27,821 nucleotides of DNA from a virus. Positions 16,332 to 20,668 of the stretch are shown in pieces; within the stretch, counting starts at the first letter, position 1; the number at the start of each line of letters is the position of its first letter. The notes below the pieces were generated by a model. The model made no database searches. It worked only from the letters and a program-made list of their open reading frames with translations, and was not told the origin of the DNA. Made by a program: the position numbers and the translations under genes. The stretch is from positions 1 to 27,821 of IMG/VR virus record IMGVR_UViG_3300045131_000175; one strand, written 5' to 3'.

Positions 16332-16514
16332 ATGCTAACTTTAGAGCAAATTAGGAATAAATTACAGGATCGCCGACTTGGCTTGATTGTTAAGGCCACC
16401 GGCCTTCACTACAACACCTTGCGCGATGTTCGGGACAATTCTGAGGCTAATCCCACCTATAAAGTTGTTAAATTGCTAAATGATTATTTCTCAGGGACAT
16501 TAAGTAATGGCTGA
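16332..16514 (+). CDS. Cro-like small helix-turn-helix protein
   Basis: The 60-aa protein follows an AGGGGA ribosome site. Its sequence MLTLEQIRNKLQDRRLGLIV then KATGLHYNTLRDVRDNSEANPTY and KVVKLLNDYFSG fits a single HTH domain: IVKATGLHYNTLRDVRD is the helix-turn-recognition-helix segment. Similar proteins of this size are common in phages, beginning with TLEQIRxxLxDRRL. It is the first rightward gene after the divergent promoters and probably controls them. Its stop lies 8 bases inside the primase gene. No repressor-type oligomerisation domain is present, so nothing here points to lysogeny. Confidence 0.85.
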   Translation: MLTLEQIRNKLQDRRLGLIVKATGLHYNTLRDVRDNSEANPTYKVVKLLNDYFSGTLSNG

Positions 16515-18516
16515 CCTATCCAATATATTTGGCGGCCCTTGGTCACCACCACCAGAAAAAATACTTACTTCGCCAGAGCAGCAATTGATTGATGCGATGG
16601 TGGCAATTGGCTTGGAGCCGCCAGATCAAATACGGATGGACGGCAAAATCCACCGTTTTAAGTCTGGCACCAAAGGCTCCGGCAACCACGGCGATAAGCC
16701 AGGCTGGTATTTGATCTTTGGCGACGGCATCCCTGCCGGTCGGTTTGGTTGCTGGCGCATGGGCATCGAGCAGACCTTTCGCGCTGACGTTGGCCGTAAA
16801 TTGTCCGACTCTGAGGAAATGACCTTTGTTCGGCGCTTGACTGAGGCTAAAACCCTGCGCGACGCTGAAATTCAGCGCAAGCACGAAGTCGCCGCCGACA
16901 CCGTTGAAAAAATATGGGTTGGTGGTGGCTTGGCCTCGCCAGATCATCCGTATTTGCAACGCAAGGGCATCAAGCCGCACGGCTCGCGCATTACCGGCGA
17001 CGGCAGGTTGATGGTTCCTTTGTATGGCACCGACGGCGTCTTATCGAGCATTCAGTACATTGATGGCGATGGGAATAAGCTATATCACCCTGGCGGCCAG
17101 ACCGGCGGCAAATACCTGATGATTGGCACGATGGACGAGCCTGGCGTTTTGTATTTGGCCGAAGGATTCGCCACCGCTGCAACGATTCACGAAACAACGA
17201 ACCGACCTTGCGTCGTGGCGTATTCGGCTTCCAACCTTGTGCCTGTTACCGGCATCCTGCGCGACACTTACGGCGTTCAGCAAAGCATCGTGATTGTGGC
17301 TGACAACGACGCCTCTGGCGTTGGCCAGCGCTACGCCGAGCAATCCTGCGCCAAGTTCGGCGCTGAAATGATCCTGCCGCCCATCCAAGGCGACGCCAAT
17401 GATTACGTCAAAGATGGCCACGATCTTCTAGCCTTACTTAATCCACCCATCGAAGGCTGGTTAGTACCGATTGACGAGTTCTGCGCCAAACCCGCCCCGA
17501 TCTCATGGCTAGTTAAGCGTTGGGTGCAATCCAATGCCTTGGTGATGGTGCATGGCCCGTCAGGTGGCGGTAAAACCTTTGTTGTTTTAGATTGGTGCTT
17601 GCGCATGGCCAGCTCTGTCCCTGATTGGTGCGGCAATAAGGTCAAGGCCGGAAACGTGGTCTATTTAGCCGGTGAAGGTCACCATGGCTTGCGCGGTCGC
17701 GTAGCCGCTTGGAAACAGCACCACCAAGTAACCACCCCCATCAATATGTGGCTATCCAAGGACGGCTGTGATTTAAATACGCCAGCCGGTTATTTAAAGG
17801 TGGTGCAGCAAATCCGTGGCATTAAACAACCCACCGTCATTATTGTGGATACCTTGCACCGCTTTCTATCAGGGGACGAAAACAGCGCCCAAGACGCTAA
17901 GACGATGCTGGATTCGTGCAATAACCTGATGAACGAGTTCGATTGCTCGGTCATATTGGTGCATCACACCGGTGTATCGGAAGAAGCGCAGCACCGAGCC
18001 CGAGGCTCAAGTGCGTGGCGTGGAGCCTTAGATATTGAGATATCGGTGGTGCCTGGCACGGATACCACGCCAATGAAGCTGGTGCAAAGGAAGTCAAAAG
18101 ACGCCGAAATGACCGAGCCGGTCTTCCTATCCCTGCAATCCGTGGCCATTACCGGCTGGAGGGACGAGGATGACCAGCCAGTAACCAGCGCGGTCGTCGT
18201 CGAATCATCGGCGCCAGTAAGAGATAAGAAGGACTCCAAGACCGACGGATTTAGGAAAATGTTTGAAAATGCGTGGTTTGATTCAGGCGCTGAAGTCATT
18301 AACGATCAGCCATACTTGTCTAGGTCGGCGCTGAAAGAGAAACTTGCCAAGGACGGCAACGCCGATCGAACGATCAGGAACATGATTAATCCGTCCTACA
18401 CCGATAAATTGATCGGGTATTTGATGCAGTCAGGGATGATTCAAGCCAGCGAACATGGGTGGATTATGGTTAATGAATTGGAAACGAATGCACTGCTTTT
18501 GAGGAAGAATAGTTAG
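16507..18516 (+). CDS. Bifunctional TOPRIM primase / RepA-like replicative helicase
   Basis: The 669-aa protein has two parts. Residues about 30-310 hold a phage primase: GKIHRFKSGTKGSGNHGDKP, GWYLIFGDG, then a TOPRIM with YLAEGFATA (E219) and VADNDASG (D266, D268). Residues about 325-560 hold a RecA-fold helicase of the RSF1010 RepA/AAA_25 type: Walker A HGPSGGGKTF (349-358), Walker B TVIIVDTLHRFLSG (D448), and the SVILVHHTGV plus RARGSSAWRGALD motifs. The C-terminal 100 residues look like a winged-helix or linker domain. This fusion would open and prime DNA, handing over to the host polymerase. Iteron-like repeats follow directly after the gene. Confidence 0.93.
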   Translation: MADLSNIFGGPWSPPPEKILTSPEQQLIDAMVAIGLEPPDQIRMDGKIHRFKSGTKGSGNHGDKPGWYLIFGDGIPAGRFGCWRMGIEQTFRADVGRKLSDSEEMTFVRRLTEAKTLRDAEIQRKHEVAADTVEKIWVGGGLASPDHPYLQRKGIKPHGSRITGDGRLMVPLYGTDGVLSSIQYIDGDGNKLYHPGGQTGGKYLMIGTMDEPGVLYLAEGFATAATIHETTNRPCVVAYSASNLVPVTGILRDTYGVQQSIVIVADNDASGVGQRYAEQSCAKFGAEMILPPIQGDANDYVKDGHDLLALLNPPIEGWLVPIDEFCAKPAPISWLVKRWVQSNALVMVHGPSGGGKTFVVLDWCLRMASSVPDWCGNKVKAGNVVYLAGEGHHGLRGRVAAWKQHHQVTTPINMWLSKDGCDLNTPAGYLKVVQQIRGIKQPTVIIVDTLHRFLSGDENSAQDAKTMLDSCNNLMNEFDCSVILVHHTGVSEEAQHRARGSSAWRGALDIEISVVPGTDTTPMKLVQRKSKDAEMTEPVFLSLQSVAITGWRDEDDQPVTSAVVVESSAPVRDKKDSKTDGFRKMFENAWFDSGAEVINDQPYLSRSALKEKLAKDGNADRTIRNMINPSYTDKLIGYLMQSGMIQASEHGWIMVNELETNALLLRKNS

Positions 18517-18530
18517 TATCTTAGCATTAG

Positions 18531-18668
18531 AAAAGTTGACCCTAAATGACCCTAGGGTCATGACCCTAGTCAGGGTCAAAAAGGGGCAAAAGATGGCAAA
18601 AGTTGACCCTCCCTGACCCCTAACCCTTAGGGTTAGGGTCAAGGGTCAATGCCAGCAGGGTCAGGGTT
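18531..18668 (+). repeat. AGGGTC/GACCCT iteron cluster
   Basis: Exact hexamers GACCCT start at 18538, 18548, 18562 and 18605; AGGGTC starts at 18554, 18572, 18635, 18642 and 18657. Near copies are GACCCC at 18615 and AGGGTT at 18663. The 13-mer AAAAGTTGACCCT occurs twice (18531-18543, 18598-18610). TGACCCTAGGGTCA (18547-18560) is a perfect 14-bp palindrome, and GGCAAAAG is repeated with a 10-base step at 18585 and 18595. On random sequence about 0.06 copies would be expected in this length. Confidence 0.9.
18618..18638 (+). repeat. Perfect inverted repeat with telomere-like TTAGGG units
   Basis: The arms CCCTAACCCT (18618-18627) and AGGGTTAGGG (18629-18638) are perfect inverse complements around one T. 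It sits inside the iteron cluster and is flanked by GACCC and GGTC, so the near-palindrome reaches about 25 bp. It could extrude as a cruciform or be a double binding site. Confidence 0.8.
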
Positions 18669-18743
18669 GGTTAAGTTTAAAGATTTTGTTTTGTTAGTTT
18701 TTTGGTATCTTTTTTTTATTAACATTTTATTACGAAAAAAATC

Positions 18744-18989
18744 ATGGGAATTCATGGAATTGGTCGGCCAGCAAAACCGGACGTAAAGTATTTCCAGCGG
18801 CAGCTTGGGGCGACGGAAAGGCACACGTTGCTGGTGGCTGGTGATGGCGATCTGTCGGCTGGGTTTCTGGAAGTGATCGATGCTTACCGGCATTTCTATA
18901 AACTTGGTTTAAGGCCTGATATGGCGCTCGATGGAGTTACCCTAGTCCTACCCAAAGGAAGGAAGAAAAACGTCTCTAAGACCCCTTAG
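18744..18989 (+). CDS. Small basic protein next to the iterons, possibly ribbon-helix-helix
   Basis: The 81-aa product is not firmly recognised. The N-terminus is basic (GRPAKPDVKYFQRQLGATER), the middle reads LLVAGDGDLSAGFLEVIDAY, and the C-terminus is VTLVLPKGRKKNVSKTP. The GDLSAGFLEVI segment resembles the G-x-L-S-x-G-h-x-x-h pattern of small ribbon-helix-helix repressors, which would suit a gene between two repeat regions. No ribosome site is present; the ATG lies 10 bases after a TATTAC box, so it may be leaderless. Confidence is for the gene being real; the DNA-binding call is weak. Confidence 0.6.
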   Translation: MGIHGIGRPAKPDVKYFQRQLGATERHTLLVAGDGDLSAGFLEVIDAYRHFYKLGLRPDMALDGVTLVLPKGRKKNVSKTP

Positions 18990-19054
18990 AATCGATTTAA
19001 ACGCTACTGGTGGTGCAGGTTGTGCGCGGTGTTTTTTAAAGAAAGAAAAACAAA

Positions 19055-19104
19055 CGCAAACGAACGCAAACGAACATAAACGAAAGCAAAGGAAAGGAAA
19101 CGAA
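19055..19104 (+). repeat. Five tandem 10-base repeats, consensus CGCAAACGAA
   Basis: Consecutive units are CGCAAACGAA, CGCAAACGAA, CATAAACGAA, AGCAAAGGAA and AGGAAACGAA, with a more degenerate unit before them (GAAAAACAAA at 19045). The period is one helical turn, so each AAA faces the same side of the DNA. Such arrays suit cooperative protein binding or DNA bending. Confidence 0.85.
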
Positions 19105-19238
19105 CATTGGTGGTCGGAGGAAGCTCCCCCCGCCTCTTTCTTTATTCTTTTTTGGCCTCCCCCCTCTTTTTTTGCTACCAATTTTGTAACTAATGTTTTG
19201 AAAGTAGTAATCAAATTGCATCCCGCTATAGGTTTTGG

Positions 19239-19293: not shown

Positions 19294-19424
19294 GTTTTTC
19301 CTTGTGTGTGTGCGCTCACTCACTTTTTCCTGACTTTTTGATAGGGGGGGGAGGTCGGGGCTGAGAGAAAATTTTTGTTGTACCCTCCGCCACCCAAAAA
19401 AAGTGAAACTAGGAAAATCAATTT

Positions 19425-19441: not shown

Positions 19442-20668
19442 ATGAAAATACAAATTACCCAACGCAACGTAACGGATTTGATTCCTTACGCAAGAAACAG
19501 CCGAACTCACAGCGACGAGCAGGTGGCTCAAATAGCCGCCAGTATTAAAGAGTTCGGCTGGACTAATCCCATTCTGGTGGACGCCGACGGCAGCATCATT
19601 GCTGGCCACGGAAGGCTGCTAGCGGCCAGAAAGCTGGGGTATGACGAAGTGCCGACCATTGAGTTGGGGCATCTAACACCGGCGCAAAAAAAGGCTTACG
19701 TCATAGCTGACAACCAACTGGCGCTAAATGCTGGCTGGGATACTGAGCTATTGATGTTAGAGTTACAAGAATTGCAAGATTGCGACTTTGACCTAGACCT
19801 GCTGGGCTTTGACCCGAAAGAGCTAGACAAGTTATTGGAGCCGGAGCAGGTCGAAGGCTTGACCGATGAGGATGCGGTTCCCGACGCACCGGATGAGCCT
19901 AAGACCCGCTTGGGGGATATCTATCAGCTTGGCGGCCATCGGTTGATGTGTGGGGATAGCACGAGTATTGACGATGCTGAAAAACTAATGGGTGGATTAT
20001 TGGCTGATTTAGTCTTTACTGACCCACCATACAATGTTGATTATTCAGGTAGGGGCGCAAACAATTTAGGCACTATCAAAAATGACAATATGTCAGACAA
20101 CGATTTTGAGCAATTTTGTCGGGATGTATTTACAACATATAGCGCAATAATGAAACCTTTGGCGTGTATTTATGTATGTCATCCCGACAGTGCATCAGCG
20201 CCAAAAATTGCGTTTGAAAAAACTTTTGCAGAGCAATTTAAGAAATCTTCCACAATTATATGGATGAAGCAATCAGCAGGTATGGGATGGCAAGACTATA
20301 GAGCGCAACACGAGCCTATTCTTTACGGATGGAAAGAAGGTAAAGGCAGCCATTTTAATGCTGGGGATAGAACTAAAACATCTATATGGAAAATTGGTCG
20401 AGATGCTCAAAGCAGCTATGTTCATCCAACGCAAAAACCAGTTTGTCTGCCAGAAGAAGCAATTATGAATAGCAGTAAAGGCTCTGATTGCGTTGTTGAT
20501 TTATTTGGCGGAAGCGGCTCCACCTTAATTGCTTGCGAAAAGACTGGCAGAATAAATAGAAGCATGGAACTAGACCCAAAATACTGCGACGTTATAGTCA
20601 AGCGCTGGGAAGACTTCACCGGAAAGAAGGCTGTTTTGGAGGGTCAGCATGAACTTGAAAACGCTTGA
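19442..20668 (+). CDS. ParB-domain / DNA (N4 or N6) methyltransferase fusion
   Basis: The 408-aa protein joins two domains. Residues 1-110 are a ParB/Srx-like domain (LIPYARNSRTHSDEQVAQIA, then GWTNPILVD and IIAGHGRLLAARKLG). Residues about 150-400 are a beta-class amino-methyltransferase: the catalytic DPPYNVDY (194-201) comes first and the AdoMet-binding DLFGGSGSTLIACEKTG block (353-369) near the end. The product would methylate adenine N6 or cytosine N4 on phage DNA, with the ParB part perhaps guiding it on DNA. No ribosome site is seen, and a promoter lies right at the ATG. It overlaps the small terminase gene by 20 bases, so modification may be tied to packaging. The recognition sequence is unknown. 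Confidence 0.93.
   Translation: MKIQITQRNVTDLIPYARNSRTHSDEQVAQIAASIKEFGWTNPILVDADGSIIAGHGRLLAARKLGYDEVPTIELGHLTPAQKKAYVIADNQLALNAGWDTELLMLELQELQDCDFDLDLLGFDPKELDKLLEPEQVEGLTDEDAVPDAPDEPKTRLGDIYQLGGHRLMCGDSTSIDDAEKLMGGLLADLVFTDPPYNVDYSGRGANNLGTIKNDNMSDNDFEQFCRDVFTTYSAIMKPLACIYVCHPDSASAPKIAFEKTFAEQFKKSSTIIWMKQSAGMGWQDYRAQHEPILYGWKEGKGSHFNAGDRTKTSIWKIGRDAQSSYVHPTQKPVCLPEEAIMNSSKGSDCVVDLFGGSGSTLIACEKTGRINRSMELDPKYCDVIVKRWEDFTGKKAVLEGQHELENA

Follow-up and report, generated by a model that had tools for sequence, protein, structure and literature searches.

The window, that is, the whole stretch of DNA analysed here, is the IMG/VR virus record IMGVR_UViG_3300045131_000175 (27,821 nt), a single contig that may be incomplete, so that further origins outside the block are possible. 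Structural genes were found at both of its ends. A leftward recombination operon encodes a Sak4-like annealing protein, an SSB-like DUF669 protein, a Cas4-type exonuclease and a helicase, and a rightward pair consists of a 60-aa Cro-type gene overlapping the gene for a 669-aa primase-helicase. The first-pass annotation had placed a repeat cluster next to the latter gene; the block lies directly 3' of this TOPRIM and RecA-type primase-helicase gene, with a terminase gene approximately 2.7 kb downstream of it. The features are as follows.

16507..18516, plus strand: primase-helicase, 669 aa (Pfam; AlphaFold2)
Residues 215-302 of the primase-helicase: Toprim_3 (Pfam)
Residues 320-491 of the primase-helicase: AAA_25, RecA-type ATPase (Pfam)
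18235..18510, plus strand: predicted winged-helix domain, residues 577-668, proposed reader of the repeated word (AlphaFold2; divergence when the word differs)
18352..18402, plus strand: predicted recognition helix and following loop, residues 616-632, the NADRTIRNMINPS region (excess identity among same-word pairs)
18537..18578, both orientations: left word set, with GACCCT at 18538, 18548 and 18562, AGGGTC at 18554 and 18572, and the 16- and 18-bp palindromes
18583..18588, plus strand: GGGGCA box between the left and right sets
18594..18654, no strand: right word set, a long hairpin closed by TGGCA/TGCCA (fold, inverted repeat I3 and equivalent hairpins of relatives), with GACCCT at 18605, GACCC at 18615, AGGGTC at 18635 and 18642, and the apical loop TTA at 18627-18629
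18657..18662, plus strand: last AGGGTC word, beyond the hairpin
18663..18740, no strand: A+T-rich stretch after the block, a possible unwinding region

The nine exact AGGGTC/GACCCT copies reported earlier within 125 bases were found between 18538 and 18662. The whole window contains 19, 9 of them in the block (whole-window shuffles: mean 6.5, largest 15). The two densest clusters of a single 6-mer in the window were GGGTCA/TGACCC, with 10 sites in 18537-18662, and AGGGTC, with 9; the best unrelated 6-mer reached 6, and no other 6-mer in the window clustered comparably. The highest count of any one 6-mer per 125 bp in 40 windows simulated with a Markov-1 model was 5. The 14-bp palindrome of the first-pass annotation proved to be the core of a perfect 16-bp palindrome (18546-18561), which overlaps an 18-bp palindrome at 18552-18569, and its 13-bp direct repeat, AAAAGTTGACCCT, was located at 18531 and 18598. 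The first word begins 21 nt after the helicase stop codon. Only a short spacer (18579-18604), containing the GGGGCA box, separates the two sets, and the AT-rich stretch that had been described lies outside the sets, with 77% A+T at 18661-18720. Folded as single-stranded DNA, the block gave -36.2 kcal/mol, compared to -17.9 +/- 2.7 for shuffles (z -6.8).

Toprim_3 and AAA_25 were the only Pfam matches of the primase-helicase. Its AlphaFold2 model had a mean pLDDT of 84, and the top PDB matches were T7 gp4, Twinkle, and RSF1010 RepA. As modelled, the enzyme is a T7 gp4-like fold with an extra C-terminal domain (577-668), in which the predicted elements follow the winged-helix order H-E-H-H-H-E-E-H at a pLDDT of about 89. 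Foldseek comparison of this domain with known winged helices returned weak, CRP/FNR-like matches only (best E 0.06), and a Pfam search with it gave nothing at E up to 5.

Several other elements were observed downstream of the block. An 81-aa ORF (18744-18989, plus strand) had no match in Pfam or PHROG; a related small ORF (GRP...FxRQL...AGDGDLSxGF) was seen by eye after the block in other loci of the window clade. Purine-rich AAACGAACGC / AAACGAACA repeats at 19036-19105 were also found in L006, L011, L013, and L067 and were absent from L014 and L066. A run of at least 8 G followed by AGGTCGGGG or AGGGTGGGG (about 19380-19405) is kept in window-clade relatives, before a methyltransferase gene; in the window, the plus-strand gene at 19442-20668 encodes a ParB_N-like domain, below the Pfam cut-off, and an N6_N4 DNA methyltransferase.

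Equivalent blocks and DnaA boxes in related phages

Helicase relatives were drawn from IMG/VR and phage records, giving 141 distinct loci; L008 and L032 were left out as frameshift or truncation artefacts. The first-pass annotation had named absence of the repeats at this junction in related phages as evidence against its reading; when the junction was checked, most of the 141 loci carried an equivalent block, including those of the isolated Salicola phage CGphi29, Idiomarinaceae phage 1N2-2, and Alteromonas phages PB15 and XX1924. The median distance from the helicase stop codon to the first word was 10.5 nt (104 loci). The shared layout consists of a left set with words in both orientations, a short spacer that often holds GGGGCA or GGGGCG, and then a long hairpin of words, whose apex is variable and self-complementary with a T/A-rich loop; the two sets are visible in most of the marked examples. 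Of 116 blocks, 56 had GGGGC[AG] on the plus strand and 3 had it on the minus strand. PB15 and XX1924 appeared by eye to have longer, A+T-rich spacers.

Words were identified from their counts, and degenerate cases called for some judgement. All copies in one genome are of one word, though the word varies between relatives; this concerted change indicates a trans-acting reader. GGGTCA is the word of the window clade and of the 72%-identical L017-L019, and elsewhere we found GGGGGC, GGAAC, GGTAAC, CGTAAC, CGCAAC, GGTACA, GGTACC, CGTACC, GGTATC, GGGACA, TGGACA, GGTTCA, GTTACA, CTAACA, and others. The exact hexamer AGGGTC of the first-pass annotation is real, but it is just one of many interchangeable words.

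Some loci departed from this arrangement. About 20 relatives forming one clade (L083 to L122, approximately 61% identical) lacked any cluster of words up to 3 kb from the helicase; in this clade (L083, L084, L087, and others to L122) a gene directly follows the helicase instead. In L143, two words, GGGTCAC and GGTACAC, are mixed in one block within the first 120 nt past the helicase stop. A minimal form was seen in L077, a Vibrio contig and the only, distant, relative found in a scan of genome contigs: one 41-nt hairpin, 10-55 nt after the helicase stop, in which two GTGACA words and two inverted ones enclose a palindromic apex. Plasmid relatives aligned to parts of the helicase only, at 24-36% identity. 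GGGGAAC-type words in both orientations were found in the first 300 nt after the helicase gene of L257 (Pseudomonas phage phiAH14b). With an identity of only 36% in the neighbouring primase, this locus raises the possibility that the layout extends beyond the family studied.

In the block zones (50.6 kb), the exact DnaA box TTATCCACA was found 51 times, whereas the other 912 kb of these loci contained 15 copies, a 61-fold enrichment around the relatives' blocks. The lineages with such boxes include the 68-72% group, the ct3Oc712 group, and single lineages such as L124, L173, and L175; a search for exact TTATCCACA found none near the window's own block. Cumulative GC skew, proposed earlier as a check of the origin, was uninformative because its minima (5038 in CGphi29 and 22457 in PB15) lay near the divergent promoter, away from the block, and gene direction confounds them.

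Taken together, the DnaA-box enrichment, the place beside the primase-helicase, and the inverted-repeat build make replication initiation much the best reading, and indirectly support the block as the replication origin of the phage. The first-pass annotation had described the usual build of an iteron origin; its reading as an origin is supported, whereas the repeats form two inverted sets that can fold into hairpins and are not simple tandem iterons.

Coupling between the word and the C-terminal domain

Helicases were compared pairwise. Where near-identical helicases have different words, the C-terminal domain diverges most. Among pairs with a core identity of at least 0.93, C-terminal identity was 0.91 for the same word (44 pairs) and 0.44 for different words (9 pairs). 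Core and C-terminal identities were 0.96 and 0.34 for L112/L133 (GGTACC/GATACC), 0.94 and 0.25 for L167/L170 (ACCCC/CTAAC), and 0.98 and 0.61 for L178/L175 (GGTACC/GGTAAC). For L161/L158, whose words CGTAAC and CGCAAC are one base apart, they were 0.97 and 0.85, and the differences cluster in and around the predicted recognition helix while the last residues are identical.

When pairs were matched for core identity, pairs sharing a word were more alike in the predicted recognition helix (616-632) than pairs whose words differ. This excess was 0.23-0.40 in the recognition helix and little or none in the primase, ATPase, wing, and C-terminal helix; without one over-sampled clade it was 0.228 in the recognition helix, 0.011 in the primase, and -0.005 in the ATPase. 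The word-shuffle control gave -0.002 +/- 0.026 (largest of 500, 0.073) and never reached the observed value; this test is not fully phylogeny-aware, and the primase, ATPase, wing, and C-terminal helix serve as internal controls on the same tree. These comparisons suggest that the C-terminal domain of the primase-helicase is probably the reader of the word. A residue-to-base code, with a tyrosine for words ending in AAC, was considered from the alignment and dropped because the readers of GGGACA and GGTTCA carry the same tyrosine.

The C-terminal segment adjoins the block, and joint exchange would couple the two even if the protein did not bind the words. The origin might then be driven by DnaA, whose boxes occur in several lineages, with the words bound by another phage or host protein and the helicase change merely hitch-hiking on local recombination. 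Such hitch-hiking predicts divergence over the whole C-terminal domain, whereas same-word identity was concentrated in the recognition helix, with no such concentration in the wing or C-terminal helix, and the CGTAAC/CGCAAC pair differs mainly around that helix. We consider this explanation improbable, although it is the strongest of the alternatives.

A structured RNA, or a terminator or regulatory hairpin ending the helicase transcript, would account for the strength of the block's hairpin and for an apical stem that varies yet stays paired (62 distinct apical 7-mers among 99 hairpins; a gapped version of the hairpin scoring was used for relatives, since ungapped scoring was too strict). However, an Rfam covariance-model search gave no match at E up to 1, and stem mismatches showed no excess of G-T over A-C (63 vs 70, and 27 vs 23 in a separate count). 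The pairing is therefore more likely a property of the DNA, in the form of inverted binding sites and possible hairpin extrusion. Moreover, the block's sole terminator-like match is oriented towards the opposite strand, the sharing of one word by all copies is more than base pairing would require, and DnaA boxes flank the block in relatives. A role in RNA thus appears very unlikely.

Clustered words resembling binding sites beside small genes, one of them of DNA-binding type, could also form an operator or autoregulatory site for the helicase or for the 60-aa Cro-type or 81-aa neighbour, with no origin involved. The 60-aa neighbour, however, does not track the word: the window and L026 encode versions that share 62% identity and have almost the same recognition helix (TGLHYNTLRDVRDN / TGLHYNTIREVRDN), yet the words of their blocks are GGGTCA and GGTAAC. 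The divergent promoter of the window has no word cluster, the gene after the block differs in many relatives, and the DnaA boxes indicate replication. We give an operator as little weight as an RNA element. A packaging (cos/pac) or recombination site, suggested by the dyad symmetry and the downstream terminase gene, is the least credible, since the block stays beside the helicase and tracks its C-terminus, and several other genes separate it from the terminase genes in CGphi29 and PB15.

Proposed mechanism and relation to known origins

We therefore favour, with a probability of roughly 0.85, the reading that the block is an origin, that the adjacent primase-helicase is its own initiator through the C-terminal domain, and that reader and origin can be exchanged as one cassette. 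Sequence comparison supports it through the conserved place and layout, the concerted change of copies, the DnaA-box enrichment, and the coupling of word and recognition helix; the steps of word binding, melting, priming, and initiation are inferred. Points against it are the clade lacking a word cluster, the window's block having no DnaA box nearby, and the weak Foldseek matches of the C-terminal domain. The winged-helix domain would bind the repeated word (here GGGTCA) in the two inverted sets, and this binding would gather helicase rings on the inverted sites. The assembled helicase may then melt or extrude the hairpin and the flanking A+T-rich DNA (18661-18720), the TOPRIM domain would prime, and the host polymerase or replisome would take over, with host DnaA assisting in some relatives via the flanking boxes. 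Because the reader domain comes last in the gene and the origin directly follows, both could be exchanged as one cassette, so that the word switches while the body of the enzyme stays.

The first-pass annotation knew of no phage origin with this motif, and the literature searched contained no description of an origin of this kind for these phages; the claim nevertheless needs qualifying because the origins of SaPI/PICI satellites and of pRN1 have the same general layout. In SaPI Rep and SCCmec Cch2, the C-terminal domain reads iterons directly downstream of its own gene (PMC7581432), and PICIs have two iteron sets (PMC6092414). The pri-rep-ori modules of these staphylococcal and Gram-negative phage satellites (PMC7581432, PMC6092414) resemble the block here in that an initiator helicase reads iterons by its C-terminal domain, the origin is immediately 3' of the initiator gene, and the two iteron sets vary in sequence between elements. 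SaPI Rep proteins are DUF927 or D5/Primase_Cterm helicases, with AEP primases, and act in satellites, whereas here an AAA_25 RecA-type helicase is joined to TOPRIM, and the phage encodes structural proteins and a terminase of its own. In PICIs, the iterons lie on either side of an A+T-rich region; in the window, a short GGGGCA-box spacer separates the sets and the A+T-rich DNA is outside.

In the crenarchaeal plasmid pRN1, a stem-loop downstream of the primase-helicase is needed for replication, and the same was suggested for phage BIP-1 (PMC4234260). These share with our locus, where the evidence is computational, a primase-helicase that ends in a winged helix, followed directly by a stem-loop of roughly 100 nt. 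As here, the structure of the stem-loop is preserved while its sequence changes. No iterons were reported there (PMC4234260), whereas here the hairpin is mostly made of the repeated word. The pRN1 enzyme combines an AEP primase with an SF3 helicase, in contrast to TOPRIM and RecA-type domains here. The helicase of the phage P4 alpha protein belongs to a different family from the one here. As proposed here, P4 alpha unites a TOPRIM-type primase, helicase, and origin binding in one protein (PMC4234260). RSF1010, whose RepA is among the closest solved helicase domains, likewise has iterons plus stem-loops, used for priming, but its iteron binder (RepC) and its primase are proteins of their own (PMC4234260). 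In begomoviruses, plant ssDNA viruses with a rolling-circle Rep unrelated to this system, iterons and matching Rep residues change together, probably in one recombination event across adjacent sequence (PMC2974675).

The best explanation is that the origin here works like those of SaPI/PICI and pRN1 on an unrelated helicase type. As their helicases and primases are of other families, the block is counted as a variant, not a member. These results predict an origin in a large group of aquatic phages, both cultured and uncultured, whose origin was not found described in the literature searched. A layout like that of PICIs, which had been called unique to those satellites, would thereby also occur in phages whose helicase is of an unrelated type. 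The naturally occurring words, two of which differ by one base and go with few amino-acid differences, offer material on how a recognition helix reads an origin and bear on how replication specificity switches. More tentatively, and at somewhat less than even odds, a widespread phage lineage may carry an exchangeable cassette of origin and reader that ends the primase-helicase gene and gives replication specificity types. Recombination within the conserved ATPase segment would transfer the cassettes, and a word would change by a single base together with a few changes in the recognition helix. Co-infecting phages or parasites could then not use each other's origin, and the RecA-type helicase itself, not a separate initiator, would read it.
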